Positions 31,190 through 62,690 of a stretch of DNA of 64,000 bases are shown piece by piece. The stretch is from Loxodes magnus. Lineage: Eukaryota; Ciliophora; Karyorelictea; Loxodida; Loxodidae. The notes beneath the pieces were generated by a model. That model was not told where the DNA came from. It saw only the letters and a list, made by a program, of their open reading frames with translations, and did no database searches. Numbering within the stretch: position 1 is the first letter of the stretch; each line of letters opens with the position of its first letter. Made by a program: the position numbers and the translations under genes. The stretch lies in NCBI GenBank assembly GCA_946699065.1, contig CAMPDV010000896.1, positions 62,001 to 126,000 on the forward strand. Reading direction: 5' to 3'.

Positions 31190-31495
31190 TAATTGAAAAG
31201 ATGGTTGGAGTTGAAAATGACCTTCGAAACAACACTTTCTGGTTTTATGGCCAGGAACAAGTTCCTTTCATGTTGCTGAGAAAGTCCTTGGTCAGAGTCA
31301 TTTTCTGAAGGGAACAGTGTCTTTGAGATTTCCCGCTCTTGGTAGGGGCGAGAAATCTTGCTGCTTATAGCGATGGAGCTCCTAGCAGCTGTACCTGGAG
31401 CACAATAGGATATCCCCGTTATTCCATAAAAAGAGAGCGTCGGGCCGTGCAATCGGAAAGGAGTTTCCGGTCCAAAAACTTTTTTAGTTGAAATT
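31190..31495 (-). ncRNA. R element copy 1 (subtype I structured RNA retroposon)
   Basis: About 300-nt G+C island, antisense to the plus strand. Sense features: hairpin CCGGAAA-ctcc-TTTCCG, then ATAACGGGGATATCC, a stem AGATTTC paired to GAAATCT around CCCCTACC, a TCAG/CTGA helix, and a 3' end CCAACCATCTTTTC. It is closest to copy 3 (subtype I). A TAAAAAATTTT word on both sides may be a target-site duplication. Function unknown. Confidence 0.8.
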
Positions 31496-31561
31496 AATTA
31501 ATTAAATAAAAAATTTTTCTTTAAATTGGTTTTATTAAAATTTATTTATTTAATTAAATGA

Positions 31562-32385
31562 AATATAATAAATATAATATAAAATAATATAATAAATATA
31601 ATATAAAATAATATAATATAATATAATATAATATAATATAATATAATATAATATAATATAATATAATATAAAATAATATAATATAATATAATATAATATA
31701 ATATAATATAATATAATATAATATAATATAATATAATATAATATAATATAATATAATATAATATAATATAATATAATATAATATAATATAATATAATATA
31801 ATATAATATAATATAATATAATATAATATAATATAATATAATATAATATAATATAATATAATATAATATAATATAATATAATATAATATAATATAATATA
31901 ATATAATATAATATAATATAATATAATATAATATAAAATAATATAATATAATATAATATAATATAATAAATATAATATAATATAATATAATATAATATAA
32001 TATAATATAATATAATATAATATAATATAATATAATATAATATAATATAAAATAATATAATATAATATAATATAATATAATATAATATAATATAATATAA
32101 TATAATATAATATAATATAATATAATATAATATAATATAATATAATATAATATAATATAATATAATATAATATAATATAATATAATATAATATAATATAA
32201 TATAATATAATATAATATAATATAATATAATATAATATAATATAATATAATATAATATAATATAATATAATATAATATAATATAATATAATATAATATAA
32301 TATAATATAATATAATATAATATAATATAATATAATATAATATAATATAATATAATATAATATAATATAATATAATATAATATAA
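31562..32385. repeat. (AATAT)n pentanucleotide block
   Basis: About 165 almost perfect AATAT units with a few AAAAT or AATAAATAT variants. The long Ile-Leu-Tyr open frame across it is an artefact of the repeat. R elements lie on both sides in the same orientation. Confidence 0.97.
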
Positions 32386-32789
32386 AATTATAAATGCTTT
32401 GTTTTTCATCCAGCGTTTAACAGGTTTAAATTTTTTCCATCTTTTTTAATTTTTAAAACGAATAAAAAAATAAAATATTTAATATAATAGAAAAAATAAA
32501 TTTTATTTTAATAAAAATTATATTTAACTTAAAGAAAAATATACGCTTGAAAATTTTATTTAAGGAATTAAGAAGAAAAAAAAAGTAATTTTATATAAAT
32601 TTTATCTAAAACAAGATCTTCATAAAATTTCTTTATAATCATACTTTTAAGCTTAATACTTATTATAAAAATATAAAAAATGAAGAAATAGTGAAAGAAT
32701 TTCTAAACATCTTTTAAGCCTTTTTAAATAATAAAATGCCCTTTTTGTATAATCTTTGAGAGAAAAGTTTAAAAAATAAAATTTATAAT

Positions 32790-33075
32790 TAAAAAGATGG
32801 TGGGAGCTGAGATTGACCTTCTGAATCATACTTTCTGGCTTTATGGCTAGGAACAAGTTCCTTTCCTGTCGCTGAGAAAGTCCCTGGTCAAAGTCAACCT
32901 TTGCAAGGGAACGCCTTCCTCTTGATTATCCACTCCTAGTAGGGGCTTGAAGCCTGGCTGCCCATAGTGATGGAGCTCCCTGGCAGCTGCTTTTCGAAAG
33001 CAACAGGATATCCCCGTAATCCCATGAAGGGAGTTTTGGAGTCGTTAAACTGCAAAAGCTCTTTTAGTTTAAAAT
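32790..33075 (-). ncRNA. R element copy 2 (subtype II)
   Basis: Antisense to the plus strand. Sense features: TGCTTT-cg-AAAGCA hairpin after GGGGATATCC, GGCTTCAAGCC, CAAAG-gttga-CTTTG, and a 3' end CCCACCATCTTTTT. It resembles copy 4. Possible target-site duplication around ATAAAATTT on both sides. Confidence 0.8.
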
Positions 33076-33089
33076 TAATTAAAATATAA

Positions 33090-34580
33090 AATTTGTATCT
33101 AAAAATAAAAAATAGAAATATTGAAAGAAAAGCATGAAAAATATGGAAACTAAAACAAAAAAGTTAGAGATGCTGATTGAATAATAAATCTCTTATTAAC
33201 TATAAAAATTAAGATATATCCAATTAATGGAAAAGTTAATTTATATTCATCAAGCCAAAACTTAAAATTTCATTAATTTTTTTATAAGATGATTTATATG
33301 AAGAAATGGTAGAAAACATTTTACTCTCTTTTGCTATATCATGACTGTTCCTAAAAAAATATTTTTTGAATAATCAGAAGTTTATCTAATGATAAATGAA
33401 CGTCTTTAAAAAAATATAAACGAATCCATTATTTTAAGTAATTATTTTTAGATTTTTAATATTTACTCCTTCTTAAATGCAATAGTTTAATGACTTCTGA
33501 ATAAATGTGATAAAATTTCACAAAATTTCTTTAAATGAATAAAAGAAAACTAATAATGATATAATTCGCATCTAAAAAATTAAGAAAAAATTATAAAAAT
33601 ATATAATTAGAGAAAAAAGCAAAGAAATGAATAATAAAAAGTTATCCGAATACTTGAAAAACTCACCCTGGAAGTAATAAAAAGAAAATATGACTGGAAT
33701 GAAATAATCAAAAATATGGGTATTTACAAAAAAATAAAACACGAAAATCTAGGTAATGATACTGGAAAAAAAATTGAATAAAAATAGAACAGATTCAAAT
33801 TAATCAAAAAGAATAAAGATTAAGTGGTCAACCGAATTAATTTTGAAAATTTTGTAATTTCGAAAAAACCTCTAAATGTGGCTTAAAAGCCTTTTCTGAC
33901 AGTAATGTAATAAAACGGAATTAATTTCGATCTCATCTGTAAGAAAATTATGTAGAAAATTTTATGGTACAATTTATGGCTATAAAAAAACAGATATAAA
34001 AATTGATAAAAAAAGTGTAAAAACTGGAAAGAAAAAAGTTATTTAAAAAAAATTAAAAGAAAAGTTTTAATCTCTGTAGACATTCGTGTTATCAGATGAA
34101 TCGAGTAAATTTCTAAAAACGATAAATATGGTATATTAAATTAAATATTTCCACTTAAGAGAAAATGAAATAAAATTTTTGTAAAATCCAAAAAAAAACT
34201 GGAAATAATAAGGAAGTAAATCGTAAAATAAAAAGCTTCGAGCTAATATTCGAAATAAAAAACGGTTTTTTAAGTTCTCTTTGATACTCTTACAATACAA
34301 AAATTTCTATAGTTCAAAAAAAGGAGCTAAGAAAAATATTGGTCAGAAAATATTGTGAAAATTTTGAGATTAAATTAAATCCTTTTTTACAAATTTATTT
34401 TTAGACTAAAATCTTAGTTAAATAATATAAATGTAGTTTAATTTGAAAATATTAGAGCATATCCTTTAAATTGCAAAACTTATGATTTCAAGTTTATAAC
34501 AACTTTACTATTAAAATGACTAAGTTTGATGTTTTAAAAAATAACATCCTTATAGATACTCATATGAAATAATTTTGCAC
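33090..34580. other. A-rich region, no gene assigned
   Basis: Frames are open but no domain is recognisable; weak coding-like text at 33.63-34.0 kb. Confidence 0.35.
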
Positions 34581-34584
34581 TAAA

Positions 34585-34661
34585 AAGATTGTATAAGTCC
34601 AGTGGTTGGAATATTCTACTATAACTCTAAATTCCCGAGTTCAAGTCCCGATTCTTTTTTT
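34585..34661 (+). pseudogene. tRNA-like relic, possibly tRNA-Gln(CUA)
   Basis: An A-box-like word (TAAGTCCAGTGG), a B-box-like word (AGTTCAAGTCC) and a terminal T run have tRNA spacing. The anticodon loop would be CTCTAAA, giving CUA, which reads UAG. The anticodon stem and T stem do not pair, so this is at best a decayed gene. Confidence 0.3.
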
Positions 34662-34687
34662 ATTAACTAATAAAAATAAAAACGCCC

Positions 34688-34843
34688 AATGTAAAAGCCA
34701 AAATTCAAGATAAGGAAGATATTCCTCCTGATCAGTAAAGATTGATATTTGCTAGAAAACAATTAGAAGACGGAAGAACTCTATCTGATTATAACATCTA
34801 GAAAGAATCGACCCTCCTCTTAGTATTGAGACTAAGAGGTTGA
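34688..34843 (+). pseudogene. ubiquitin fragment (residues 25-75)
   Basis: 51 codons align without gaps to ubiquitin from Asn25 to Gly75 (NVKAKIQDKEDIPPDQQRL, ARKQLEDGRTLSDYN, IQKESTLLLVLRLRG). Gln41 is UAA and Gln62 is UAG, a direct proof of the code. Differences from the near-invariant protein include Gly35Asp, Gly47Arg and His68Leu. Residues 1-24 are missing; upstream sequence is unrelated AT-rich DNA next to a tRNA-like relic. The UGA follows Gly75, so the terminal Gly76 needed for conjugation is absent. A functional monomer is therefore excluded; it may be a truncated or retroposed copy. Confidence 0.9.
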
Positions 34844-34849
34844 TACAAT

Positions 34850-36100
34850 TTTTTTATTGAAAATTGCCTTCTAATTTTTGGAATATTTTACATCATATAA
34901 TATATAAAATTTATTAAACAAGCAATCTCAAGTGACGATGCAGTAAACTTAAAAAAAGTGTTAATAGGTGAACTAAAAAACTTTTCTTGCATGTCATATG
35001 AATTGATAATATTTAAATAATCTATAAGTATTTTAGCACTTTGCTAGGAAGTCATGAATAAAAATAAGTTAAAAATATATAATAAATTGAAGGATTTGCA
35101 TTAAGAATATTTATATAAAAAATTAACAGATGTGGGGATTTCTTTTATAGGGTAAATTTGTATTGGCTTAAAAATATATAAAAGGCATCTTTTTTAGAAC
35201 ATTATAAAAAAGAATCTTTTCTGTATTTTTTTTACATTAATTAAGCATATATTTTTAATATTTTTTAAGTGAACTAAATTGAAACAAATCGTTTTTCGGG
35301 TAATAACTTTAGCTTTTTTTTCTGGTTATGTTGAATCATAAAGCAAATTTTTAATTTATTAAAAGAATAAAGGTAAGCTTAAAATAATTTTTTTTATTTC
35401 ATTGTTTTGCTTAAGGGATTTTTTATTAAAAAAAATTATTTTTTTGTTGTTGAACTTTGTCGATCCATGAGGTTACAATTTAAAGATATCTGTTTAAATC
35501 AAATATTCGCCTTATTTATTTGTTTATATGTTTTTTAGTCAAAAGCGCGGTTACCAAATTCTTGAAGAATAAATTTAAGGGTTGTATCCACAATCATCAA
35601 AAATATAACTTAAAAATTATGTGGATAAGAAGCTGTTAGAATATATTATGATAATTCTAACATTTTTAGAATTTTTTAGCTTGCCTTAACTTCAGGTGAG
35701 GTACAAGAAGCAATTCTAGTTTTCGGTAAAAAAGGGCTTTATAAGAAAGCAATTCAAATAAAATCGGAATAATTTAGAAAATAATTAAATAGATAGAATA
35801 CTAGCCTTTAAATTAAACCTTCAAATTGGAATGAATTTAATCTCCTAAAATTAATTAAGAACTTCACAAAATAGAAATGGAAAATTAAAATTATAGGATT
35901 TTATTAAGTTAGTCATTCGGAGAATTAATTGTAAACTAATTGACTTAACTTTATTGTTCAATTGAAAAGCCTTTAAAAATTTCAATGTGCAATTTATTAA
36001 TAAATTTTATTCAAAAATAGTAAATGCTTGTGAAGTATCTAGATCTCGACTTCATAATATTTTAAAAGTATGCTACCTTGATTATATTTAAGTTGCATAA
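34850..36100. other. AT-rich region, no gene assigned
   Basis: Nothing recognisable before the LINE-1 tail at 36.1 kb. Confidence 0.4.
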
Positions 36101-36123
36101 TAATAATAATAAATTTGATTATA

Positions 36124-36154
36124 GAGCGCGTAGCACCTCGTTGGTGCGCAGCTC
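36124..36154 (-). other. LINE-1 3' terminal hairpin
   Basis: Sense strand GAGC-t-GCG-CACC-AACGA-GGTG-cta-CGC-GCTC: two helices, a bulged U, an asymmetric CUA and a five-base loop, followed by TATAATCAAATTTATT. Confidence 0.8.
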
Positions 36155-36174
36155 TTTAATAAACGTTTCAATAC

Positions 36175-39100
36175 ATGTCTATTTCTTCAAGTAAGCCTTC
36201 AGGTAATAAAAATTCTTCTCTTATTAGTTCCATATCTTCATCATTTTCTTCTTCAATATCTCTTGTTCTTCTGTCTTCTTCTATCTACGTTTTATTGATT
36301 CTTTGTTACAAGCGTCCATTATTTTTTTTACATATTTTGCTAATTTTCGTTTCTAATTCTTTTCTTCTTAATCAAGCTTTTATAAAATCATAAAAATTAT
36401 CCTTTTCCTGCTCTATAATCTTTTCCTATTTCTTTTTTTCATTCAATTTTCTTTTCTAAGTATCCTTTTTTTCTTTTTTCTAAAATGTTTTTGATATAAT
36501 CTTTTATTGTCAAGTCAGTTTTAACTCTTTTTTACTCTTCTTAGGTTCTAATTAATTTTTCGAATTTTGCCGTACCTCATATTATATCAAATAGTTCCAT
36601 TCCTTGTCTTTCTACTCCTATTGTTCTTAACTTTCTAATACATATTTATCTACTTTCTTTGTATTCTGAACATTTTTCTATGATATGCCTTTCGTTTTCT
36701 CTTGCATCATTACAGAAAGGGCATTTGCTTGTCGCAACTAGGTGTCTTTCTTTTAAACAATCCTGGCTCCCGTTACATCTCGTTCTTATTCTAAATATGC
36801 AGCATATTTCTTCTTTTCTATTTTTATTGTATCTCAGGTAGTTGGGTGGTCCTATTACATATTCATCAAATCATGTTTTTCTATACTGTAGAGTTGTTAT
36901 CATTTACTCCATTATTTCTCTATCTTCTACGTATACTCTATATTCTCAAATTGCACGATTAATGTTTTTCTTCCCTTTTTGATTATTATTACCATCATCT
37001 ATAAATATATTTTTGTCTTCAATTTTTAATTCTAATCTTATTGTCGTGCAGTATTGTTCAAAAATAAAGTTCTCTTCTTTACTTAGATCGAACATTAATC
37101 CATCTACTGTTTTTCCTTAGTTACCTATTAGTCTGCCTCTTAATCTCAGCGTTTTCTGCCATAGGTAATGTTTAAATTTCATAAACTGTAACTCGTATTC
37201 TAGCATCTCATTTTACACTTAGAAAGGGGCATCTATGATTGCTCGTAAAGATCTTCTCTATATTATTTCTAATTGTTCCATCACTTATTTTCCTACAAAT
37301 TATTCACAATATGGGATAACTTCTGTCCCATAGCTGAATACTGAGCTTACGAACGTTTTTATCATTATACCTGCGTTATATGGTGTTAATCCCTTATTCA
37401 TTGTTATTTTACCCAGTATTCATGTTTACATCTTTTATGCTGCTTCTAGTCTGTTCTCCATGTGTTTTTCAAAGCTGATGGTTTCTTCTATTATATGCCC
37501 TAAGTACTAAAAGGACGTTACTCTTTCGATTCTTAAGTTTCCCACCTCAATAGTATTGCCTATATTTTCTCAGTTTCTATTTTCTGCTGCTTTTCATATC
37601 ATTCATTTTGTTTTATCTGCAATTTCCAGTTTGTATTTTTCTGCCCATGAGGTTAAATTTTTGATTACTTCCTCTAATTATTCTAATCACTTATTAAGGC
37701 TAGGTCATCTGCATATGCAAAACATCCTGCATATATTTCTTGTGTTCATCCCTCTTAGTTTTTAAAGTCAAACGTAATTCCTAGCTTTTAATCTTCCAAG
37801 CTATGGAGAAGTCTTGCTATTATTAAGTTAAATAGTCTTGGCGACGTTATGCTTCCCTGTTTTAGTCCTTTATTTGTCGCGAATGATTTTGCTATTTATT
37901 CATTGATTTTAAGTTTAATTTCTTCTTCACAGTAGAAGTTTGCTAGGAGTTTAATTATCTATTCCGGTACTTTTAGATCGTTTAGGATTTATCATATATC
38001 TTTTCTTTGCGCCGAGTCGTACGCTTTCTTAATATCAACAAATATTACGAAAACATCTTTTTTGTTCCGTATTGATAATTCCTATACTGTTCTTAGGTTG
38101 AAAATTTATAGTGAGCATGATTTTCCTTTTTTAAAGCCATATTAATATTCGCTTTCATCATTATGCAGATATCCTTATAGTTGCTAGAAAATTCAGGCAT
38201 CTACTATTTTTAAAGCATGATTCAGTAAAGAGATTGGTCTATAATTCATCGGGTTCATCTGTCCTCCTTTTTTGTATATTAATATTATGTATTATTATTT
38301 CATCTCTTAAGGTATTACTCCCTCTTAAATCATCTTAACTATCGTTTTACATGTTACTTCTGTTAGTTTTTTCCCACCTGCTAATATTGTGCCTACTTGT
38401 ATTTCATCAGGTCCTGCTGCTTTTCATTTCGCCAATTAGTTGATGATTTCTCAAATTTCATATTCGTTTACCACTATTTATCTCTTGTTTAAGAATTTAG
38501 TTGGTAGCGTATTATCGCCATCTTCATACAGTTTCTACCATTCATCCCTGAAAGTATTAACACTTCTTTTAATAAGGGTACTCATTAATTATTTTTTCTA
38601 TTAAGTAAGCTTTTTAGTTTCTTCCACATATCTGCTAGACTTCCTTTATTTACATTGTCCATAAATAGGTTTAGTTAGTTTCTTTTATCTTTTTTCTTGA
38701 TTAAATGTATTCTTATCTTACTCTTTGGTATTCTCTTTGATTCTCAATTTATTGATTTTCATTTATTTGTTTTCTGTTCTTTACCCTTTATTTTAATTGT
38801 TTGCTGCATTTTCTAAAGATTTTATTACACTATTTTGTTGTTTCTGAATATTTATATATCTTAGAGTTTTATGTTTTGGATTTTCCACATACTATTTAAA
38901 CTCCTTCTTATATCTTTTTCTTTCATCATTTATAAGTCTATGTGCCGTTTAGGTTATCAATTTCTTCTTCTTAGAGATTTTCTTGTATAAATCTTTCAAA
39001 TTTTTCTTATATATCTTTTTTCTTTGATAGTAGGTAGTTTATTTTTGCTATCTTTTATGGCTTTCTTACTTCTTTACCCATCTTTACCTATATAATACCA

Positions 39101-39260
39101 GGCCTTTGGTCACCTATTTCGTATGAGTAATAAAAATCACTCTTTAACACCTTTTCTCTCACACTCTCTTCGATTAAAAAGTAATCTATTTTATACTCAT
39201 TGTTTTAGTGAATAAAGGTACCTATTTCAGTTGGGTCTAGGCATATTAAATTATTCTGTT
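36175..39260 (-). CDS. LINE-1 ORF2: endonuclease end, reverse transcriptase, Cys/His knuckle
   Basis: In order on the minus strand: endonuclease C-terminus (IDYFLIEESVREKVL, GDQRPGIIQVKM) at about 39.2-39.08 kb; RT fingers MNPMNYRPISLLNHALKIV at about 38.25; motif A FVDIKKAYDSAQRK at about 38.03; GLKQGSITSPRLFNLI at about 37.86; catalytic YADD at 37704-37715 (CFAYADDLALIS); LEEVIKNLTSWAEKY downstream; knuckle CPFCNDARENERHIIEKC at about 36.7; end EEIDMY UGA. The frame changes by one base just after YADD, so this copy is probably inactive, although all catalytic Asp residues are present. UGA=Trp occurs inside the RT (EGWTQEIYAGC). Confidence 0.85.
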
Positions 39261-39342
39261 CCATATACTATAATAACATAAAAATTAAAGAATCTATTTA
39301 TCATATAAGTTGAATTTCTAGATTAATACAATAACTTTTAAT

Positions 39343-40230
39343 TCAAGCAGAGAAAATTAAATAGTTTAAGGATTATTCCAAAAGCTTTTTGTCATCATTA
39401 ACTTTTGGTTTTATTATTGCTTTAATTTTCTATAAGTAGATAGAAAAGGAATGGCTTAATCAGTAGCTATAATACTGATAATTTTAATAGTTACTAGTTT
39501 CAGGATCAATATAGTAACTTCCACAGAGATATACGCAAGGAATTCTTAAAAGAGCTTCTGTAAATTAATCATCTATGAATTCTGAATTGTTAGTTCAAAA
39601 ATAAAACCTATAAGAGATTCAACAAGCAAGTAATATCATCATAACCTAAGTAGCTTTTTATTTAAATTTATGCTGAATTATCAAAGTATTTAAAGTAATA
39701 TCCATTTAAAAGCTAGGAATCCTTGTAAGTTAAATCAATAACTTAAAATTAAAGCTTAGTTTTACAAATTTAGATAGCCTTATTATAACTGTGTTTCTCA
39801 ATATTTAATCCCTTTAAGCATCCACTAGTTACAAGATCTACCCAAACTAAACTTTATTTCTTCAAAGCAGTATAAAATGTATAAGACTTAAGAACTAATT
39901 CCATATTCTAATTTTATTCTACGTTTATATACACTTAATAAATGTTTGATGCTTAGCTTTAGTTAAAGAGGATAAAATTTAGTTCTTCTTATTTATTACA
40001 ATAACGATATAATCAGAATGCTAATGAAAAAGATTATTACTAAGCTGAGTGTCAATTCCAAAACCAAGTAACTATTTATCAATCTAAGTTTGATGAGCTA
40101 AATAATAGTCAGTTAGTTCCATAAACTTCCTGGTTGACTTAGGGAAAATTAGAAAATGCAAATCGAAATAAGCGGCAGGTAAATTTTTATGATATTAACC
40201 ATTATAAAAAATAATGAAATAATAAATTTA
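39343..40230 (-). CDS. hypothetical protein
   Basis: Minus-strand frame ending at UGA 39343-39345. Protein-like segments: HKNLPAAYFDLHFLIFPKST, RKFMELTDYYLAHQTQIDKQ, LLGFGIDTQLSNNLFHQHSD then YIVIVINKKN, and EALLRIPCVYLCGSYYIDPE. Composition is that of a soluble protein. No family recognised. Start not found; the frame is open to about 40.23 kb. The neighbouring LINE-1 truncation point lies only 80 bp from its 3' end. Confidence 0.5.
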
Positions 40231-40239
40231 AAGCTATAA

Positions 40240-41080
40240 TTAAATAACACTAATTTAATTGTTTAAAGATTCGTTAAAAGCAAAGTGAAGTGTATGAATC
40301 CAATCATAATCATCTTATTGAAATATATAATTATTTTTAAAAAGCAATTTTTTTAATTAAGCTTTATAGATTTTTTCTTCGCATAAATGCTTATAACCTT
40401 TTTTAATTTAATTAGTCATTTACCTTATATAATTTTTAAAGTCAAAAAATTAAATAATTGAAGGCTTTAAATATAATGTTAATGCTAAAATGAAATTAGG
40501 TATTTTTACGTTTGACTTTAATTATTAAATACAATAGATAGATAGCAAAAGTATTCAATTTTCAAACAGGTCCTTTATTTAAAATAAACTAATTAATCTC
40601 TATTGAAAAATATCGCATTAAATCAGAGTTTATTTCCTAAAATAATTATTTTTAGATTTAGATAAAACTTTAGAATTACAGCTTTGAAACCTTTTTAAAA
40701 ATTTTATGTGCTTTTTAGTTAACAAAAGTTTTTACTCTTACTTTATACAAACAATTTATTAAATTTGAATGAAAGATCTAATACCTAGTGAGACATGAAC
40801 ATGTAAGAAATTTTGCTCTGCAAGAATTTATTTTTGAATTATTTATCTAATAATTATTGGCAATAATTAACTTAGTTAAGAGGCAAATACTTGGATCCTG
40901 ATAATATACAAAGGTTATAATTAAAATGATCCATAAATAAAAATAAATAAATTGTTTATATTTCTCACAGATAAATGCAGAATTTATCTTATTTCTGGAT
41001 TATGACTCCAACTATGTAAAATGAATTTATCATTCATTTTCACTCTTTAGATTTTTATTAGACTGTTCTCTTTTCTCCAA
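40240..41080. other. AT-rich spacer
   Basis: No gene supported. Confidence 0.4.
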
Positions 41081-41087
41081 AAAAAAT

Positions 41088-41153
41088 GACAGCGGTGGGA
41101 TTTGAACCCACGCCCCGAAAGACTAGCGCCTTAGACCACTCGGCCACACTGTC
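41088..41153 (-). pseudogene. tRNA-Leu with anticodon arm deleted
   Basis: 66 nt, identical in arrangement to the tRNA-Leu at 62.6 kb but lacking 13 nt (GCTTAAGGCGCTA) that carry most of the anticodon arm. The deletion lies between two copies of AAGGCGCTAG, consistent with slippage. Acceptor, D and T arms are intact. About 75 bp of 5' flank (41154-41235) is identical to 62500-62574. Confidence 0.85.
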
Positions 41154-41291
41154 TTATAAATTCTTTTTCACCCTTCTTTTATAAATAGTTCGTAGTCCTA
41201 TATTGTTTTATACATCATTTTGTCTTTTTTTGTCATTTTTTTGGTCAAAAATTGTCCTTTTTTACAACTATTTCAAAACATTTCAAAAAAA

Positions 41292-41365
41292 TGCCGAAAC
41301 CCGGGATTGAACCGGGGACCTTTAGATCTTCAGTCTAACGCTCTCCCAACTGAGCTATATCTTTT
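41292..41365 (-). pseudogene. tRNA-Phe(GAA) with broken acceptor stem
   Basis: D arm, anticodon arm (loop CUGAAGA, anticodon GAA), T arm (CCCGG-TTCAATC-CCGGG) and the 3' acceptor strand TTTCGGC are all present. The 5' acceptor strand should be GCCGAAA but reads AAAGATA, so the stem cannot form. The 5' end appears to have been replaced by AT-rich DNA. Confidence 0.7.
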
Positions 41366-41379
41366 TTTTTTTATGTGAT

Positions 41380-42310: not shown

Positions 42311-42319
42311 AAGATTTTA

Positions 42320-43495: not shown

Positions 43496-43504
43496 TATTT
43501 AAAA

Positions 43505-47318: not shown

Positions 47319-47399
47319 CTTAAGATTTTTAATTTTTTAAATATCTATATCTCAAATTAAAAAATTTCATCTACTAATAGTTGAGTCATTAAAAAATAT

Positions 47400-49250
47400 A
47401 ATTATTTATCTATAATTTATTTATTTATTTATTTATTTATAAAACACGAACAAATAAAAAATAAAAATTATTTGGTATATTAATTCTGAGCAATAAATTT
47501 CTCAAACATTCTTATAAAAAGAGAAAATGAAGATTTTACCTTTTATAAAATGCTTTTCGATGTTTATAGTTTTAAGTATATTAATTCTCTAATTTAACTA
47601 GAGAAATTTATTTGAAATTATCTAGTTAATTTCTATGGATCATTAATAAATACATTTCTTAATTTAAGCATAATGCAAATGAATATTTGCTTATTTTTTA
47701 TTTATATGAGATTTTATTTCTTTCTAAGTAAAACTTATATAGATTTAAGCTTTTATTAGATTGTTATTACTGAAAGAATAAGGATTGAAGACATAATATT
47801 TATTATTGTATAGATATAACATGTTTTATCTATCATTAATCCTTATAATTAATGATATATACTTATATAAATTTAAAATTGAAGAAATCATAAAATAATT
47901 TTCAACTTTTAGTCTAGTTTCTTATAAAATTATTCAGCTACATTTAATTTATTATTAATATACTTCTTCTATCAATTTTAAATATAGCATTTTAAGTCTG
48001 CTTTAATTAGCTAAAATACTTAAATTAAGGTCTTAATTTAAGAAAATATAACCAAATTCGTGCTTAAATCTATTTTTTTATACTTCTTTTTCATCAGTCT
48101 AGTTTTTAAAAGATTATGTTTGATTTATCAAATTGCTTTATTTTTCAATCTTTAGAGTCTTTTAAGATTTTTATTAAAGGATTTTGCGAGAAAATTAAAA
48201 TGTATTTATTTAATTTGAATTTAAACTTTTTTAAATCTGAGTTTTAAGCAAGTCCTTAATCCTTGATAGTAGTTTTATTATTAGACCTAATTAAAATTTA
48301 AGCTTCTAATTTATTGATTTTCTCTAGTTTTTATTTGTTCTCTTTAAAAAATAAATATCAAATTTAATGTTTTTCCTTTTTACAAAATGCTTACTTTCTA
48401 TATTTTCACGTTTTTCTTAAATAAATTGTAAATTAAATTTCTAAAACTTCTTTATCTAGCAAGCATAAAGAATTAACACTTTATTTAGGATATATAATTA
48501 CTTAAAATAATTTTAAAATAAATTCTTAGTACTTATATTTTATTTAAATTTTACAAATAAACTACAATAGTTATCATTTAACATTTAAGCTTCATCTGAT
48601 TTATTTTAAATATGATTGCCAACTATATAGTCAGATATAGCTTGCTGTTATACGTAGTTTTATTCTTAATTTGATCAAATTAGGATTCTTTTAAGTTATT
48701 TATTTGTATTGTTTATTTATTATTTTCATAGTCAATTTTTATTAATGAGCATTCTTTTAAAGTTAAGAATTAGTTGCTTAAGGAAAATTTATCGAGATAT
48801 ATGAAACTTTTTGAATTAAAATATTGATATTCTGCTTTTTTAGTACCAAGATACATTTTAATAAATTTAGAATCTTAATCTTTTTCTTCTTTTTGTTCGA
48901 GTTTTATCTATTTGAATTCACTTAATTTCTAAATATACTAAACTCTCATGCAAATATAATCTCATATCTTTTCCTGTTCTTCTAAAGTATTTAAGATTAC
49001 ATCTAAAAGTTTATATTAAACCTGTTACTTGTTTTAATAAAGTTTTGAAACAAATTATTTTTTTTAGTATTGTCTTATTATTTTAGATTTTCTATCGATT
49101 CGTCATTCACTTTTTTTTCATCAGCTTCGATGATTTTTGCTAAATTGTTCAAATTAAAATAAGCTTAAAATTATATAAAAATGAACGAACATTATACTAT
49201 AAATTTAGAAGTCAGACCAAACTTTATTTTTTATAATCCTATACTCTGTA
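47400..49250 (-). CDS. coiled-coil hypothetical region
   Basis: Minus strand, convergent with the kelch gene. Frames give helical text such as KTLKIEKQSNLQNKHNLLKT, LIKADLKCYIQNQQKKYINN and KECSLIKIDYENNKQTIQIN. Frame continuity was not verified over the whole stretch and neither end is fixed. An (ATTT)n run at 47417-47441 resembles a LINE/SINE tail. Confidence 0.35.
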
Positions 49251-49461
49251 TCATCTGATTTAGCACAACTTTTTTTAATTTTTGATGCTAAGTAATTAAT
49301 GATTCAAGCACTAAAAATTTAATTTATGAATGAAAAAAGAAAAAAAGGCATCTATGCTTATAAATAAAAAAAACCATAGGCTTTTTTTTTAATTGGCTAA
49401 TACTTTTTAAAGTAGAGCTTAAATTTAAAATATTTTTAAATCTAGAAAATTAAAAAAATAT

Positions 49462-49533
49462 ACAGACAGCGGGGATCGAACCCACGACCTACTGCGTGTC
49501 GAGCAGTCGTCATAGCCACTAGACCATGTCTGC
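49462..49533 (-). tRNA. tRNA, probably Val(GAC), with C33
   Basis: Complete 72-nt cloverleaf: acceptor GCAGACA/TGTCTGT (one G-U), anticodon stem ACTGC/GCAGT, T arm GTGGG-TTCGATC-CCCGC. The seven-base anticodon loop is TCGACAC, so positions 34-36 are GAC (Val) but position 33 is C instead of the near-universal U. The body resembles eukaryotic tRNA-Val. Confidence 0.75.
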
Positions 49534-49837
49534 GATAAAATAATTATTTTAAATATTATTTAAATAATAAAGGATAATGCAAATAAACAAATAGTAGATG
49601 CAGAATATAAAATATAGTGGCATTAATCAGAAAGAAACATATGTAATAAAAACATTTTTCAAATTTATAAAATTTTGATTTTTATAACAATTTTAAAATG
49701 AAATAATATTAAATCCGAAGAGAGGAATCATTTTAAAATTTTCACTTAAATATAAATTTTAAAAACTAAAAAACTAGATATAAAATTAAAGAAAAACTAG
49801 TAATATAAACAAATATTATTTTTTATATTTTTTTAAA

Positions 49838-50320
49838 ACCGCCATAGTTGTTCGAAGGTGAACAACAAGGTCATCTTCATCAGAGGTTGGGGAAGTTAAG
49901 TACCCATAATCGACTTTATGTCTTCCTCTGCTTTGGTGTGGCCTCTAGACGTAAGATTCTTAGACCTTCGACACTGGCTTGGCTTAGTTTATTTTTAATT
50001 CTGGAACGAAAAAGAAATAATATTGCGAGCTTCATCAGAGGTGAGGAATTTAAGTACCCATAATTGACACATGTCGTCCTCCGCTTTGGTGATGCAATGA
50101 GACACAATCCTGCCATGTCCTTGGACCTCCAGCAAGTATTAAAGATTACGAGTATTCTAAAATGATATCAGTACTGAATAATTATACCAGTATTGAACAA
50201 GGTCTACATTATCTGATAATTTTATCAGTAAGAAACATTTTTATCAGTATGAAACATTATTTTTTTAAAAAGCTGCGAACCAACGAGAGTGCTACACGCT
50301 CTATAATCAAATTTATTTAT
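49838..50320 (+). mobile_element. SINE-C, with duplicated core and LINE-1 tail
   Basis: G+C island with two tandem copies of a roughly 80-bp core (CTTCATCAGAGG... AAGTACCCATAAT... CTTTGGTG, at about 49874-49943 and 50030-50094). It ends with the LINE-1 hairpin variant at about 50270-50304 and an AT tail. The core is homologous to the centre of SINE-A. Confidence 0.75.
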
Positions 50321-50774
50321 TTATTATTATTTAAATAAATTAAAATTTAAAATTAATTTTTATCATTTTTTCAAAATATTAAAAATAGCATAATTTAAAC
50401 AAAGGGAGCTCAATTGACTTAAATATTTATATTATACAAATATTTACTAAAAATTCAAAAAAATTATATATATCAATAGCTTTAAATATAAATCCAAATT
50501 AATTGCTTATTTTCTCAAAATAAAGATGTTAGATGAGATGATATATAGATTTAAATATTCTTTCAAGATGGTAGAAATAAGCATGATATTAGTATGACTT
50601 TAAAAAAATTTATTTCTGTTTTGTAATTTTAAAGCGGATGAATGCAAATTTTAAAATAAATAATAATTTTGATATTTAAATATAAATTACCATCTTAGAA
50701 ATTAAGATGATAAATTAATAGATATTAAAATATCTAAGTTCATATAATTATTTTCTTAATAAAGTAATAAAATT

Positions 50775-50789
50775 TTTAATTTAAAGTTA
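50775..50789. repeat. left target-site duplication of R element copy 3
   Basis: TTTAATTTAAAGTTA; the same 15 bp lie at 51098-51112. Confidence 0.75.
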
Positions 50790-51097
50790 ATTAATTTCAA
50801 CTAAAAAAGTTTTTGAACCGGAAACTCCTTTCCGATTGCACGACCCGACGCTCTCTTTTTATGGAATAACGGGGATATCCTGTTGTGCTCCAGGCACAGC
50901 TGCTAGGGAGTTCCATCCTATGAGCAGCCAGGCTTCAAGCCCCTACCAAGAGCGGATAATCTCAAAGCTAGTGTTCCCTTCAGAAAATGACTCTGACCAG
51001 GGACTTTCTCAATGACAGGAAAGGACAAGTTCCTAGCCATAAAACCAGAAAGTGTTGTCACGAAGGTCATTCTCAGCTCCCACCATTTTATCAATTA
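50790..51097 (+). ncRNA. R element copy 3 (subtype I) with target-site duplication
   Basis: Sense on the plus strand. Hairpin CCGGAAA-ctcc-TTTCCG, GGGGATATCC, hairpin TGTGC-tccag-GCACA, TCAGA...TCTGA helix, GGGACTTTCTC, CTCCCACCATTTT end. Flanked by the exact 15-bp repeat TTTAATTTAAAGTTA at 50775-50789 and 51098-51112, which shows it was inserted as a unit. Confidence 0.85.
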
Positions 51098-51112
51098 TTT
51101 AATTTAAAGTTA
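51098..51112. repeat. right target-site duplication of R element copy 3
   Basis: TTTAATTTAAAGTTA, exact match to the left copy. Confidence 0.75.
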
Positions 51113-51652
51113 TATTTAAAGTAAATCACTTCTATAGAAAATATAATTTTTGATTTTATATTTAAAGTATGAAATAAAAGATAAATAGTTTAGCAAAGAA
51201 AATTCTATCTGCCTGCTAATAATAATAAATTTTTATAAATTTAATTAACAAATTTACATTATTATAAAATTGATTCTATTTTTATAATCTGAAAATTTAT
51301 ATCATAAGTTTGGATAATTTTAGTTAGTATAACTCACATTAATTATTAGATTCTTAAGATTATTATCTTTTATTTTTCCTTAATTTTTATTTTTTATTAT
51401 TTTGCATATTAATAATTAATATAAGTATTATTAACTTTATACAAATTTAGTATAATTTAAAATTTGAAAAATATTAAAAATAATATTTATTTAACTAAGC
51501 TCTTTGAAATATCCCTAGCTTATATCTATTTTTTATTAACATTTATAAGTAAAAAATTAAAAAAATTTTTATGAAAAAAATTAAAAATTCAGCCAAAAAC
51601 TTTTTCGTTTTAAAAGAAACTATTATATCTTAAATTAAAATAATTAAAACTA

Positions 51653-52606
51653 CTAAATTTTTCGCCAATATTTTTTTCTCAGATCTAAAATACAAAGTTC
51701 ACTTTCATAATTAAATTAGAATATAATGCTCCTTTACTAAATAGGCTAAGTATAATCGTATCCTCCAGTTTTATATTTATCACCATATATTATTATTCGT
51801 TTAAAATCAAATATTTGTGTATCTATATCAGAAGTATTTGCAAATATAATGTATGAATTTTTTTCTGGAATATAAATTGCTGAAGTTAAAGCATTTTTTA
51901 TTATTTCCTATTCACTTAAAAACCATTCATTTTTCTTAATACTATAAATTTAAATTTTATTTTAAGCTTATTCTTCTCTAAAAAAATATCCACCAAACAC
52001 ATAAACATTTCTGTTATTTTAATCACATCCAAATGTACTAACTGGAATTTTTATAGATTAAGTATCTCTGAAATTTTTATCGCTTAAGTTAAAAAATTCA
52101 CATTCAAAAACATCTTTTTATTCTTAATTTTGAGAAAAACTTCCAGAAATAATAAAAATTAAATTTCTGTTGTTGTAGCTTGTTCTATGTCAAAATCTCG
52201 AATATTACATTTCGTATTTTTATATCTAACTATTTTCAAAATGAAATGTATAACGTTTCTAATTTTAAGTATATCCTCCAGTCAAAAGTATTACACCGTT
52301 TTATAATTATTCTATCTATGTATAAAAAAATTCTGTATTTTCGATATCAACTTTATAATCTTAAAATTATTATTCCACTATTTCGAAAATTTTTTTATTA
52401 TTTGAGTTAAACTAAATTGTAGAAACAACTTTAAAATTTTTTCTCGGAATTAAATTAGGACAGACTTCGTACTAAACTATTCCAATACCAAATGATGCAA
52501 ATAATCTACTTCCATTCTTACTATTGTAGCTTCTAATAATTTTTCTCAATGCTAAGATTTATACAATTTTATTTTCTATTTTATTTAGCATTATAAAACT
52601 ACTCAT
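51653..52606 (-). CDS. kelch-like protein, paralogue of the 61.2-kb gene
   Basis: ATG 52606 (MSSFIMLNKIENKIVQIL). Aligns along its whole length with the 61.2-kb protein: ASFGIGIVQYEVCPNL versus ALFGIGMTKYEICPNL; YSRFWHRTSYNNRNLIFIIS versus YQRYWHKTTFNRQKQIFIIS; STFGCDQNNRNVYVFGGY versus YLFGCDQTHQNIYVFGGF; GDKYKTGGYDYTQPI versus GEKYTNSSYDFTKPV. The C-termini also match (KKYWRKI versus SQWSKIS). The 61.2-kb gene stops there with UGA, whereas this one has UAG UAG (51655-51650) and no nearby UGA. Thus either UAG ends this gene or it reads on into AT-rich DNA. The 318-codon length matches the sister's 312. Confidence 0.8.
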
Positions 52607-53255
52607 TCTTAAGATGTAAATTCTTAACTTAAATTTTTAATTTTTAAATGTTTCTTAATTTACTTATTATAAAAATAGATTACTTAAAGAAGAGTTTTTC
52701 ATCACTTTCTCAGAAAGTGAGAGAAAACTTGGAGTATCTCTCTTTAGATCACGTCTAAATTTAAAATAGCAGAAAAAATATTAACCGAGCAATTCTTCCA
52801 AGACAGAAAGGGAAAATTTAACATCCTTCAATTACTTAAACTGAAATATCTACAAAAAACATAAAAAAGGAGAAGGGATCGCAGTAAGAAAATGTACCAC
52901 GAATGATAATTTGAGTAATCTGACAAAAGAATAAATAAATGGAATGGAATAGAATCAAACCCCAAAAAATGATTTTTCGACTAATTAGAACTATGTTGAA
53001 CTGAAAAAAGAGCTGATAAAACTCCAACTTGACATTTACTTTCACGCTATGAATGCAAATTTAAATATACACTACTTTAATTTATAGATTAGTTTGAAAC
53101 CAAGATGGAAGAGTTAGAGCAGCAATGTGTAAAAGTTTAAATAAAAAAATATACTAAAACCAAGAAATAAGAATGATAAGAAAAAAGAAACAGTTTTGCT
53201 CAAAAGGTATTATAACAACACTGGAGAACAATTAAATAATCCAAATGGAAAAAGA

Positions 53256-53271
53256 AAAATGAGTAGATAAT
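53256..53271. repeat. left target-site duplication (16 bp) of the 53-kb element
   Basis: AAAATGAGTAGATAAT, exact copy at 54111-54126. Confidence 0.9.
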
Positions 53272-54110
53272 TAAATTAAATTAAATTAAATTAAATTAAA
53301 AATTTTAAGGTTAATGGAGTGTTCCCTTAAAAGATCCATAAACCCCTGTATTAACTTTTACAGGGTCTCGGACTTCCCGGTGTCTCCACCCAAGTTCACT
53401 TCCGAGCTTTCCGAACGGTTTTGGAATTATCTTCTTACGTCATAATTAACCATCCGAGGAAGGATAAAGCATGGTCAATTCATTTCAAATCTTTTTTCTA
53501 ATTTCCTTATTTCCCTAGCATCTTCTTCAAAGATGATATTGACTGCCACATATGTAGCCTTTTTTTTAAGTATTTTTCTTAAGTCATGGGTTGTTCTTCT
53601 ATTATCATTGAATCTTGATTTTTTTATGGCTATTAGCTCTCTAATTTCTTTAACCTTTACTTAATTTCATTAACTTGCTAAAAGGCATTTTCATATTTTT
53701 AAAAGTCTATTCCCATTTATTCATCTAGTCTAACAATATCGCATTCTATTTCTTGATATCTATTATTAATTTCCTATTTTGTAACAAATTCAGTGTGCGG
53801 CTTCTCATTGTCCACATGATCTTATAAATCTTGTTATAAACTGATAACATAATGCTCGAGATTCTTCACTTTATCAGTGTAGTCGAAAATAATCTCCACG
53901 AGTTATTCCTTGTCTAAATTAATTAGTTGATTAAATGTATGCCTCGTTTTAAGAATTTTTCCAGGTAGTTATTTTTCTTCTGATGTTTAACAATATTTTT
54001 TCTTTTAAATCTTAGTTGGTGTTTACTAATTTTAGAAAGATTGATCAGTAGTATTACGAGTAATCTTTTCTATAAGAAAACCTTTGTTCCAATTCTCCAT
54101 CTTTTTTTTT
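53272..54110 (-). mobile_element. complete short retroelement (element D) with TTTAA tail
   Basis: 839 bp bounded by a perfect 16-bp direct repeat. Reading on the minus strand: A-rich leader, a 206-residue ORF, a G+C-rich structured 3' region at about 53330-53470, and a (TTTAA)n tail at 53272-53301. The structured region can form CCCTGTA/TACAGGG and GGTG-GAGA-CACC (a GNRA-type loop) hairpins. The tail matches LINE-2, its likely source of reverse transcriptase. Confidence 0.85.
53480..54100 (-). CDS. coiled-coil protein of element D
   Basis: ATG 54100 to UGA 53480-53482, 206 residues, no frame interruption. Begins MENWNKGFLIEKITRNTTDQ, followed by a heptad coiled coil (LVEIIFDYTDKVKNLEHYVI, NRYQEIECDIVRLDEQMGID, QQVNEIKQRLKKLESQ) and a basic C-terminus (QEKYLKKRLHMW). 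No zinc knuckle in this frame. The architecture resembles LINE ORF1 proteins that trimerise through a coiled coil. It is the only ORF of the element, so the element is non-autonomous for reverse transcription. Confidence 0.7.
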
Positions 54111-54126
54111 AAAATGAGTAGATAAT
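54111..54126. repeat. right target-site duplication of the 53-kb element
   Basis: AAAATGAGTAGATAAT. Before insertion, a plus-strand frame (MSRQQKNNKSRNSTSAVLHA) would have started in this sequence. Confidence 0.9.
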
Positions 54127-54129
54127 AGA

Positions 54130-55050
54130 AAAATAATAAAAGCAGGAATTCTACATCTGCAGTACTACATGCCTCCTCTGGAGAAATTTCAAACAGATTT
54201 GAAGATCCTTAAGAATGCTTTAAAAATCTTATTATATTTAGTCAATATATGAGGCAAAATACAAAGAATAAGTTCGATCTGAAGGAGTAGTGTATTCTTG
54301 GAAGTAATTTTTTCATCAAAGGGATCTGGGGACTTGCCTGATACTTAGGGAAAATAATTTTATAAAAAACATCCTTTTTCTAGAAAATTTTTTACTTGAT
54401 AAGATGATGTATAAATTTAAGGATAACTAAATTTGATTTAGAAGTTTTAAACACAACTACTTTCGTTTATAAGAATATTTTAGTTTGCAACTTTTTAATT
54501 TACTTTTCCTTTCAATTTTATTAAAGCATTTTTTCAATTTATTTAATTTAACCTTTTAAATTTGTTTTTCATATAAAAATAACTCTAAAAGATTTCTTCA
54601 AATAATTTAATAATTATTTTAAATTTTCTTTTTTTATTTAAATTAATTTTCTATTAATATTACTTAGCATTTTGCAGAATAAATCTCAAATCAATCTTTT
54701 TTTAACATTTCTTATTTTGCATAAATTACACTCTTCATATACTCTATTCAAGAAAAACGTCTTAAACTAGGATTTATTAATCTTCTAGTTCGTTAAATAT
54801 ACATTTTTTTTATTTAATTGTAAAAAATGACAGACAGAACGAGGCTTTTATTTTTTATTCTTTTTATGTTTTAAGATAGGTAATATTATGAATAAAAATT
54901 CCATATTTTATGAGATTTTAATTTTTTTAATTATAGATTTTCTATTTGTATTTATGAAAAAATTTTAATTAAATAAAGCCTAAATAATTAGCAAAATGAT
55001 ATATTAAAATTCTATTAAATTTATATTTTATCAAAATTTAAATTTTATAT
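54130..55050. other. short coding-like stretch then AT-rich DNA
   Basis: Plus strand 54114-54360 reads MSRQQKNNKSRNSTSAVLHA, SSGEISNRFEDPQECFKNLI and NFFIKGIWGLAW, possibly a gene interrupted by element D. The rest shows nothing. Confidence 0.35.
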
Positions 55051-55054
55051 TTAA

Positions 55055-55430
55055 ATAGAGTGGAAAGCCCTTTCCTTCAGATCCTGCTTGGAGGCCTACA
55101 AGGCAACTAAAAAATGAGTGCGGACGGAGAGTAAATCGGAGAAAGAGAAACTAATAGCAAGAGATTCCTAGAAGGAAGATTTGACAAGCGGAGAACTCTG
55201 AATGTCAGTAGAAAACCTTTTTCGTCATAGGTCGAGGAAAGATGTATCTGTAATCGCATATTGCATCCTGTGCTTTTGAAGGAAAAATTATAGGACATAC
55301 TGCAGGAAGAGAAAAAAGGGATAGAAAGACCCATAAATTTTTATTTTTCGACATAAAATAAAATTAATTTAAAGAGCAAAGCTGCGCACCAATAAGAGTG
55401 CTACGCGCTCTATGATTCATTTTTTTATTT
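55055..55430 (+). mobile_element. SINE-A, copy 2
   Basis: Diverged copy of 6055-6425: same start (GTGGAAAGCCCTTTCCTTCA), same order of blocks and the LINE-1 hairpin at about 55374-55411, here with a 4-bp insertion in the 5' strand (GAGCaaaGCTGCGC). Confidence 0.8.
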
Positions 55431-55439
55431 ATTTATACT

Positions 55440-56300
55440 CAGCTAAATTGAAAAACTTATATTATAGAGAACTTAGCGTTTATTTATAAGTTAATCTTTA
55501 TAATAAAGTTTTTATTATATGTCATCAAGAAAATTTATGAAAGTGATAAGAAATTAACAAATTAAATAAAGTAAATAAATAAGGTTATAATTTATGTTTT
55601 TTTATTATAAATAATTTGTTTATCTCTTTCAAAAAAAATCTTAAGTTAAATTTTCTTTATAAAATAACGAATGCAATTTTATAATCTAAACAATTTTCGA
55701 TATTTTTTAGAAATATATAAACAATTTTAATTTTACATAAAATGTAATGTATTTAAAAATATGCGATAATAGTAATTATAAAAATTTGAGTGAAATTAAA
55801 AAAATTGAATATTCAAAAAACTAAAGTTTAGTTTTTAGTTTTTATCATTTATAATTTCCTCTTTAATATTTTCAATTTATTTACTTTCCATTATAAATAC
55901 TAATGTGAAAAATATGGTTTTTAAATTTTATAATTTATTTTAACATAAGCGAAAAATAAGAAATTATTTTTAACATTTAATATTACTATTAATTTAAATA
56001 TTAATAAAATAAAAGAAAAAATAAAAAGTATAAAAAATATAGTCAAAAATAAAATTGAAAATTAGATGGAAATTTTAATTTAGCCATTTAAGAATTAAAT
56101 AGAAATTTCAGTTCGTGTAAATTCAGATTCAGAACTAATTTTGCTTCCTTCTCCAAAGAATAATTCCTTTTAAAGAGATATTTAACTTTCTTTAAAACTT
56201 TTATTTTTATCTCCAAATAAATTTTTTATTTCCAAAAAAATATTTCCCTTTTATAAAAAAATAAAGCAACTAAGACATTCAAGCAAGTTATTTAAAAAAT
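55440..56300. other. AT-rich spacer
   Basis: No gene supported; possible C-terminal extension of the seven-helix protein if its UGA is read as Trp. Confidence 0.4.
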
Positions 56301-56307
56301 AAAATGT

Positions 56308-57108
56308 TCATAATTAAAAAAAATTTCCATTTGTAGGTGTAAAGTCAAGCATAAAATAAGAAAACCACTATTTAAATTCCTCCTTTTTATAGAATAAATT
56401 TATTAATTATAATATCAAGTTTATATCATTCATTGTGAAGAGAATAAATTTTATTACTGGAATTCATTTCATATTTGTAAACAAAATCAATGCTTCTTGC
56501 ACTTCAAGAGAAATATTTGATATTATATTTTAATTTGAACTTTTGACTTATCGAATGATCTAGAAAATAATCGCAAAAGAATAAGCACAAAGAAATAAAA
56601 ATAAAAAAGTATTGATAAAATATAAGGTAATTATTATATTCCTTTTGTGTTCTTCTTTCAAATAATTTTATATTCCAATAAAACTTAAGATTAATAAAGG
56701 AAGTAGCAAAACAATAAATCATTGTATTCTAACATAATTATTGAATTATTTTTTAGTAATTCTTTAAAGCTTTAAAAAAAGATTCTTCATCACTAGTAAA
56801 ATTACAATTCATCAATATAAAGTTAAAAGGTATAAAGAAACTTCAAATGCATATAAAGAATGCTAAATATATTAAACAACCTTAGTATGGGTAAATTCGT
56901 ATCACAAAATAAGATGAAACAGGTCTATAATTTTAATTAGCAAAGTATTTAAAAAGTACCATCAAATTAAGTTTTGCTGTTAGTTCTGCTAGTTTTTAAA
57001 CAATTTATATAGCGAAACAGTTAATAAACAAAAAGCAAGGGATGCACCAAAAATAACCCACGCCGAAAAATAATAAAATCAATCTTTTTCTTCATATTCG
57101 CTTTTCAT
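56308..57108 (-). CDS. seven-helix membrane protein (receptor-like)
   Basis: ATG 57108 to UGA 56308-56310, exactly 267 codons. N-terminus MKSEYEEKDWFYYFSAW, then hydrophobic segments: VIFGASLAFCLLTVSLYKLF; LIWWYFLNTLLIKIIDLFHL; YAFEVSLYLLTLYWWIVILL; WFIVLLLPLLILSFIGI; ITLYFINTFLFLFLCAYSFA; and WIPVIKFILFTMNDINLIL. Six are clear, with a possible seventh at LINLFYKKEE. Spacing and size resemble small seven-transmembrane proteins such as the THH1/TOM1 group or cAMP-receptor-like proteins, but no diagnostic motif was found. Several Trp codons are UGA. Confidence 0.7.
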
Positions 57109-57534
57109 ATTTTAAATTTAGTTAATACTTACAAAAAAGTAAAGGCAAGTATTTTAAATAAAAAATCAAAAAAAATTATTATAGATCCTAAATTTTATAC
57201 TTTTTATATGAAATTATAAATATTTAAATTTCAGGGATAAATAAAAAAATTTAAGAAGTAAAAATATAAAAATGAGCGAAAATTTCGTTTTTTTAATTAA
57301 ATTTTAAATAATAAAAAAATAATAAATTAAATGAGGTATAATGATAATTCTATTTTTATAAAATGTTTTAAATAGGATAATTTATAAATAGATAATAAAA
57401 TACTATTTACATAATTTTATTAATATTAAAAATTTTTTATCTTTATATTTATTACTCTTTTCTTTTTCTTAAATTTTTGAATGTTCAATAAATTTAAAAT
57501 TTGTGCTAGTTTTTTAATTTTCCATAATTAATTT

Positions 57535-57835
57535 TAACTTAAAGAGTTTTAGACTGCAACTTCTTGCAGTTTAACGACCCCAACACTCCCTTCATGGGAT
57601 AACGGGGATATCCTGTTGCCTTCGAAAAGCAGCTGTCAGGGAACTCCATCACTATGGGCAGCCAGGCTTCAAGCCCCTACCAGGAGTGGATAATCAAAAG
57701 GAAGGCGTTTCCTTGCAAAGGTTGACTTTGACAAGGGACTTTCTCAGCAACAGGAAAGGAACTTGTTCCTAGCCATAAAACCAGAAAGTATGATTCAGAA
57801 GGTCAATCTCAGCTCCCACCATCTTTTTAATTATT
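57535..57835 (+). ncRNA. R element copy 4 (subtype II)
   Basis: Sense on the plus strand. Hairpin ACTGCAA-cttc-TTGCAGT near the 5' end, ATAACGGGGATATCC, TGCCTTC-gaaAAGCA hairpin, GGCTTCAAGCC, CAAAG-gttga-CTTTG, GGAAC-tt-GTTCC and the 3' end CCCACCATCTTTTT. Closest to copy 2. Confidence 0.85.
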
Positions 57836-57949
57836 TCGAAAATTTTATTTTTTAACACTAAAAACATAATAATTAAAGATAAAATGGATAAAAAATTCAT
57901 TTATATTAGATATTTTGTTATTTTTTGTAAAGCTTATTTATATTAATTA

Positions 57950-59400: not shown

Positions 59401-59534
59401 ATAAATTGAATATTATTGGCATTTGATGTAGTACTTAATTAAATCATTCAATATGATTTTTTTATTTACAATTTTTTAAGTTAATAAAAATAAGTATTAC
59501 TTTAAATGAAAATTTACTATATAAATAATTTACT

Positions 59535-62495: not shown

Positions 62496-62574
62496 AAAAA
62501 AAAGACAAAATGATGTATAAAACAATATAGGACTACGAACTATTTATAAAAGAAGGGTGAAAAAGAATTTATAA

Positions 62575-62653: not shown

Positions 62654-62660
62654 ATTTTTT

Positions 62661-62690
62661 TATAATAATAATAATAATAATAATAATAGT
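62661..62690. repeat. (TAA)n microsatellite
   Basis: About nine ATA/TAA units just after the tRNA terminator, next to the 3' end of the Gag-like ORF. Confidence 0.9.

Follow-up and report, generated by a model that had tools for sequence, protein, structure and literature searches.

This study deals with the R elements of the ciliate Loxodes magnus, four copies of which lie in a stretch of 64,000 nucleotides (bases 62001-126000 of contig C896, i.e. CAMPDV010000896.1; hereafter the window). We consider, with a probability of about 0.85, that R is a non-autonomous, high-copy retroposon resembling short interspersed nuclear elements (SINEs), that it carries the tail of a long interspersed nuclear element (LINE), here named LINE-B, and that its two subtypes with compensated helices result from fold-dependent mobilisation by this LINE. 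The R repeats are best read as such a SINE-like family because duplications flank 22 of 30 insertions and because their 3' end is that of a LINE. A set of stand-alone RNA genes was rejected as an improbable reading of these copies. The initial annotation, made from the letters of the window alone, had considered an RNA gene plus a parasite of it; this view found no support, the 3' end of R being common to a LINE. The assembly searched comprised 705,730,643 bases in 7843 contigs.

The four copies, each of about 290-310 nt and alignable over nearly their full length, were recovered where the initial annotation had placed them. Two are on the + strand, namely R1 (31190..31503, with a TTAA tail) and R2 (32786..33080), and two on the - strand, namely R3 (50787..51097) and R4 (57525..57833). 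R1 and R3 represent subtype I, R2 and R4 subtype II, and the subtypes differ in 59 of 303 aligned columns, 5 of which are gap columns. The conserved blocks GGATATCC and CCCCTACC (antisense), already pointed out in that annotation, are real and present in the R copies. Near the 3' end of R1, a terminal hairpin CGGAAA-GGAG-TTTCCG (31454..31469, + strand; CTGCAA-GAAG-TTGCAG in subtype II) precedes a tail GTCCAAAAACTTTTTTAGTTGAAATTAATTAA (31470..31503, + strand) that is common to LINE-B. The GC content of R (0.44-0.48) compares with 0.235 for the window and 0.253 for a further 200 kb of the genome; it is 0.37 in an old copy about 71 % identical (L050). The R1 insertion was also found on contig C1173 (L002), as a second haplotype or a duplicate region, and an insertion with the same flanks as R4 on contig C22 (L051). 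Such same-flank insertions were encountered twice each for L001/L002, L004/L005, L026/L030 and R4/L051, on two contigs or on one, and correspond to haplotypes or duplicated regions. In R1, clustered changes at 31327-31358 create a perfect AGATTTC/GAAATCT helix that is not in the type I majority sequence and that, among the aligned loci, occurs only in the L001/L002 insertion, perhaps through a template-switch mutation.

Searches of the assembly yielded at least 1256 candidate matches with R1 as query and at least 1831 with R4; the best 40 of each were scored and were 91-100 % and 97-100 % identical, respectively. Within the 200 kb of further sequence, R copies were present in stretches that had not been picked for a match of their own (L033, 89 % identical, and L050), in one stretch picked for a match (L047) and as a weak fragment in L031. 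Among the 30 best loci (i.e. the top-scoring R1 matches, a sample biased to full length), the 5' start TAATTGAAAAGAT was found in 27, a 3' end with AGTTGAAATTAA in 26 and AGTTGAAATTAATTAA in 21, and a TTAA-type tail of variable length follows the 3' end.

Target-site duplications were assessed on 30 insertions, i.e. 27 loci of the R1 search plus R3, L033 and L052, without R2 and R4; L002, L005 and L030 were dropped as repeats of other insertions. The longest match between 5' and 3' flanks reached 12 bp or more in 22 of these 30 vs 8 of 870 mismatched flank pairs, with means of 13.5 bp and 7.1 bp, and the duplication is often separated from the 5' end of R by additional bases. Flank duplications, 5' extra bases and variable tail together form a signature of target-primed reverse transcription, which indicates that the + strand of R1 is the RNA sense. 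The initial annotation had read the RNA in the reverse orientation, taking the T-rich CCACCATCTTTT as its end: CCACCATCTTTT is the reverse complement of the 5' start GATGGTGG, and the RNA-sense 3' end is that with AGTTGAAATTAATTAA. It had also deduced mobility from a 15-bp duplication at R3, TTTAATTTAAAGTTA, which we confirmed (3'-side copy at 50775..50789, 5'-side copy at 51098..51112, both unstranded). Mobility stands, but the idea that R3 is special in this respect found no support, since most of the insertions compared have flank duplications of 12 bp or more. Short size, duplicated targets and AT-rich ends would also suit a miniature inverted-repeat transposable element (MITE) or another DNA transposon; however, visual inspection of the 30-copy alignment revealed no convincing terminal inverted repeat, the length of the duplication varies, as does the 3' tail, and the 3' end is common to a LINE. 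With no such inverted repeat seen and no fixed duplication length, we rejected this explanation, which appears extremely improbable.

The R unit of ~303 nt was next considered for coding capacity under the host code. Each of the sense frames contains at least two stops in type I, R4 and L052, the longest open sense stretch has 94 residues, and the frame is shifted between subtypes by a 1-nt indel. A protein-coding R was rejected, as the open frames of I and II differ across this indel. As for the code itself, only 3 normal-complexity open frames of at least 100 residues were obtained under the standard code in the window plus the 200 kb; reading TAA/TAG as glutamine yields proteins such as a mitochondrial carrier (L038, Pfam 3e-47) and a zinc carboxypeptidase (L037, 2.9e-14). 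These coherent proteins led us to adopt TAA/TAG = Q and to discard both the standard code and TGA=W. R is thus short, non-coding, of high copy number and flanked by target-site duplications of variable length, as expected of a member of the SINEs.

A partner LINE was then recognised from the end of R2, which matches locus L035 over 27 nt. The match site is the 3' end of a repeat, LINE-B, with C-terminal protein fragments judged by eye to be LINE-like. At least 3575 candidates were obtained with LINE-B as query, and 35 of the best 40, which were scored, have a match reaching query position 929-934, the 3' end found also in R. One copy (L053) ends with GTCAAAAAACTCTTTTAGTTTAAATTTAATTAA, to be compared with the GTCCAAAAACTTTTTTAGTTGAAATTAATTAA end of R type I, and R and LINE-B have about 33 nt at the 3' end in common. 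Local scores between R ends and LINE-B were 44 (type I), 39 (L052) and 50 (R2), each equalled by 0 of 2000 Markov resamplings, whereas the end of the other LINE of the window scored 26 in the same comparison. A hairpin lies directly before the common tail in both R and LINE-B (predicted fold for the latter), so R has both a partner-LINE 3' end and a 3' stem-loop. Because of this common end and of the hairpin preceding it in both, R is probably mobilised by LINE-B, and the sequences suggest that LINE-B probably does so via the "stringent" recognition of the 3' end.

The same 3' end could be explained if R were an internally deleted LINE-B, with the 5' untranslated region joined to the 3' one, instead of an independent head with a captured LINE tail, and the lack of a match between the R body and known RNAs would also be expected in that case. 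We consider this unlikely, since all matches to the R body found with BLAST/nhmmer in 363,983 bases are R copies or weak relic-like fragments, and the likeness of R to the LINE-B pieces examined (3' parts, without a 5' end) is limited to the last ~33 nt.

We further investigated the secondary structure of R. The three paired swaps between subtypes quoted in the initial annotation were all found in the alignment, i.e. CGGAAA/TTTCCG to CTGCAA/TTGCAG, TGTGC/GCACA vs TGCTTT/AAAGCA and TCAGA/TCTGA vs CAAAG/CTTTG. Other double-sided swaps were GCTGCT/AGCAGC to GCTGCC/GGCAGC, ATGAC/GTCAT to TTGAC/GTCAA and, over a long range, CGCTCTT/GAGAGCG to CACTCCT/GGGAGTG. Stems changed on both sides comprise 203-207/213-217 (3 double changes), the terminal hairpin 267-272/277-282 (2), a long-range stem of 7 bp at 146-152/246-252 (2), and 170-177/197-204, 104-108/114-118 and 28-32/108-112 (1 each); for the last two, a pseudoknot or alternative folds can be envisaged.

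The number of doubly changed pairs in local stems was 10, vs 3.9 +/- 2.2 in column shuffles (1 of 300 as high). The consensus fold of type I and R4 obtained with RNAalifold had z = -4.30 relative to column shuffles (0 of 300 as low) and 7 double changes vs 3.1 (9 of 300 as high); with R2 added, the values were z = -3.09 (2 of 300) and 8 vs 2.4 (0 of 300). In a MAFFT alignment of 36 sequences (A2), 9 pairs were changed on both sides vs 3.6 in shuffled columns (0 of 500), slid controls giving 1-7. The excess over column shuffles supports the view, also taken from that annotation, that the two subtypes preserve their helices by compensatory change. Individual copies do not all retain every helix, as R2 lacks part of the terminal hairpin. 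In the register of the stems listed above, the subtypes differ at 10 of the 44 named pairs; every one of these is altered on both sides and remains paired, whereas within the 31 type I rows 32 of 48 changed cells were broken and 16 still pairing (Fisher p 1e-4 against the between-subtype figures). This contrast would be expected if parent elements are under selection and their offspring decay neutrally.

High GC content and compensatory change are also features of functional RNAs, so that the R copies might be retro-pseudogenes of a conserved structured RNA of the host, templated by the LINE by chance. No Rfam family matched, however (at E <5 for a type I copy, at the gathering score for the window copies), and two amplified subtypes that are both LINE-tailed would be unexpected for a host RNA; we hold this explanation to be very unlikely.

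The head of R was compared with known RNAs and examined for RNA polymerase III (Pol III) features. With a type I copy as query, Rfam returned nothing with E <5, the best hits (Sphinx_2, U7 and U2, E 5.2-7.1) being at chance level, and cmscan placed none of the window R copies at the gathering score, in agreement with the initial annotation, which had recognised no RNA class. A U2-like head was rejected as a chance-level hit (11.4 bits, E 7.1). Neither Rfam cmscan nor ARAGORN detected a transfer RNA (tRNA), 5S or 7SL/signal recognition particle (SRP) head, although a very diverged head would escape these scans, and the ordinary tRNA or 7SL SINE that the earlier annotation had named as the finding that would overturn its view was not recognisable. 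On the sense strand, the best match to the 11-nt B box has 2 mismatches; the antisense strand has a B-box match, GCTTCAAGCCC, with 1 mismatch. A degenerate A-box-like motif, TGGCTTTATGG, occurs at position 51 of R2, and loose A-box matches with one mismatch occur at several places. The conserved tail is preceded by a T run in subtype I but by only TTT in L052 and R4 (subtype II). Strict membership of R among the SINEs is not established, because its head has neither an Rfam match nor a good Pol III B box.

These features bear on the possibility of an ordinary Pol III SINE whose tRNA, 5S or 7SL head has diverged beyond recognition. The size, target-site duplications and LINE tail of R would fit, as would the A-box-like motif of R2 and the loose A-box matches. 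The sense B box has at least 2 mismatches, however (the 1-mismatch GCTTCAAGCCC being antisense), the T run of subtype I would be an expected Pol III stop before the conserved tail (L052 and R4 having only TTT), and the Rfam/ARAGORN scans gave no tRNA, 5S or SRP match; such an origin seems to us rather improbable. Tentatively, and at somewhat less than even odds, the head might be a previously undescribed structured RNA, derived from neither tRNA, 5S, 7SL nor small nuclear RNA and not made by Pol III, with a multi-helix domain, a stem closing it over a long range and a pseudoknot in which 28-32 pairs with 108-112 in the loop of hairpin 104-107/115-118; the whole fold, not just the 3' hairpin, would then be selected for mobilisation, in a ciliate that keeps mobile elements in its somatic nucleus.

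For R as a SINE-like retroposon, the following mechanism can be proposed. On folding, the R transcript would present a 3' hairpin and tail that mimic the end of LINE-B RNA, and its GC-rich body may form a multi-helix domain closed by the 7-bp long-range stem, plus a possible pseudoknot. Stability, transcription or the binding of a host or LINE protein is probably the reason why this body has been retained. The LINE-B reverse transcriptase/endonuclease would bind R RNA and use target-primed reverse transcription to copy it at nicked AT-rich sites, and only copies whose RNA folds correctly would become parents. The proposed restriction of parenthood to correctly folding copies would account both for the compensated differences between I and II and for the pair-breaking decay of individual copies.

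Several observations weigh against this reading of R. Concerning mobility, the full length of the 30 best loci is partly a product of selecting the best scorers, the flank match is below 12 bp in 8 of 30 insertions, and flank matches are weak in R2 (10 bp) and R4 (8 bp), that of R1 being 11 bp of A/T. One antisense frame is stop-free in type I, R4 and L052 (103, 102 and 105 residues, respectively; host code), which we attribute to chance because the frames of I and II are shifted by the 1-nt indel. Concerning the partner, a Pfam scan of one LINE-B fragment gave no match, and the LINE-B pieces examined are degenerate 3' parts, with no full-length copy among them. Concerning structure, the excess of double changes is weaker when all stems are counted (20 vs 12.1, with 13 of 300 shuffles reaching 20), local stems with 3 double changes also turn up in 6 of 300 shuffles, and the column shuffles preserve conservation classes, not dinucleotides. 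On A2, the long-range stem is misaligned in subtype II and is for this reason scored as broken in that alignment. The Fisher test is partly circular, because the named helices were picked for pairing in both subtypes, and the column shuffles are the fairer tests. In essence, the double changes belong to a single branch (I vs II), the subtype II insertions compared number three, one of them partly truncated, and single-sequence folds are not exceptionally stable (z -1.06 and -1.77).

Other repeats were noticed in the window. A second LINE (zf-RVT, Pfam E 0.0004, under the curated cut-off) is present at 1-761 (+) and 36108-37419 (-); its 3' end, GCACCAACGAG.GTGCTACGCGCTCTATAAT followed by TTTA or TTA repeats, differs from that of LINE-B and R. 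At least two short families have the 3' end of this second LINE (6024-6426 and 55024-55431; 49850-50323), suggesting a second LINE/SINE-like partnership, and their copies at 6.0 and 49.9 kb reach a GC content of at least 40 %. A repeat of ~360 bp at 59045-59410, for which no partner was identified, reaches 40 % GC and has copies e.g. in L011, L020, L032-L035, L044 and L045. A long (AATAT)n array (31560-32390) separates R1 from R2, a 27-nt satellite lies at 15229-16894 and a 9-nt minisatellite at 29719-30171. Two direct copies of ~855 bp, 92 % identical and of a kind we did not recognise, occupy 8834-9688 and 57948-58793, the second starting just past R4. A tRNA-Leu block is duplicated in inverted orientation with 92 % identity (41080-41231 and 62497-62661), the copy at 41 kb being without 13 anticodon-arm bases that the copy at 62.6 kb has.

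SINE/LINE pairs of the stringent type, as reviewed in PMC3747384, include eel UnaSINE/UnaL2, the tobacco TS SINE with an RTE LINE, and a plant L1 lineage, for which compensatory mutations in the 3'-end stem-loop are reported there. R resembles such pairs in being a short non-coding retroposon with the 3' end of a partner LINE and a stem-loop near this end; it differs in having no recognisable tRNA, 5S or 7SL head or good B box, in its GC-rich multi-helix body and in its ciliate host. The LINE tail of R is familiar; its head is unfamiliar. Among ciliates, putative SINEs are annotated in Paramecium (PMC5405496), and '4 SINEs' are given in PMC8934623. Compared by description only, these too are ciliate repeats without protein-coding potential, but the descriptions seen in the two sources do not mention a partner LINE end. 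Our literature search found no paper linking karyorelict and SINE.

For Loxodes magnus, PMC11441545 gives a macronuclear genome (MAC) of 706 Mbp, probably the assembly searched here, with abundant LINEs and 915 repeat families, most of them unclassified; 'SINE' has 0 occurrences in its main text, and R may be one of these unclassified families. The same paper reports that no extensive genome editing was found, and parasites such as R would persist in the expressed nucleus for this reason. With no clear Pol III features in its head, the way in which R is transcribed becomes a question of its own. If the interpretation proposed here is true, R and LINE-B would constitute a SINE/LINE pair in a karyorelict ciliate, and the two young subtypes with their compensated helices would represent a natural mutagenesis test of which parts of a SINE RNA are required for retrotransposition.

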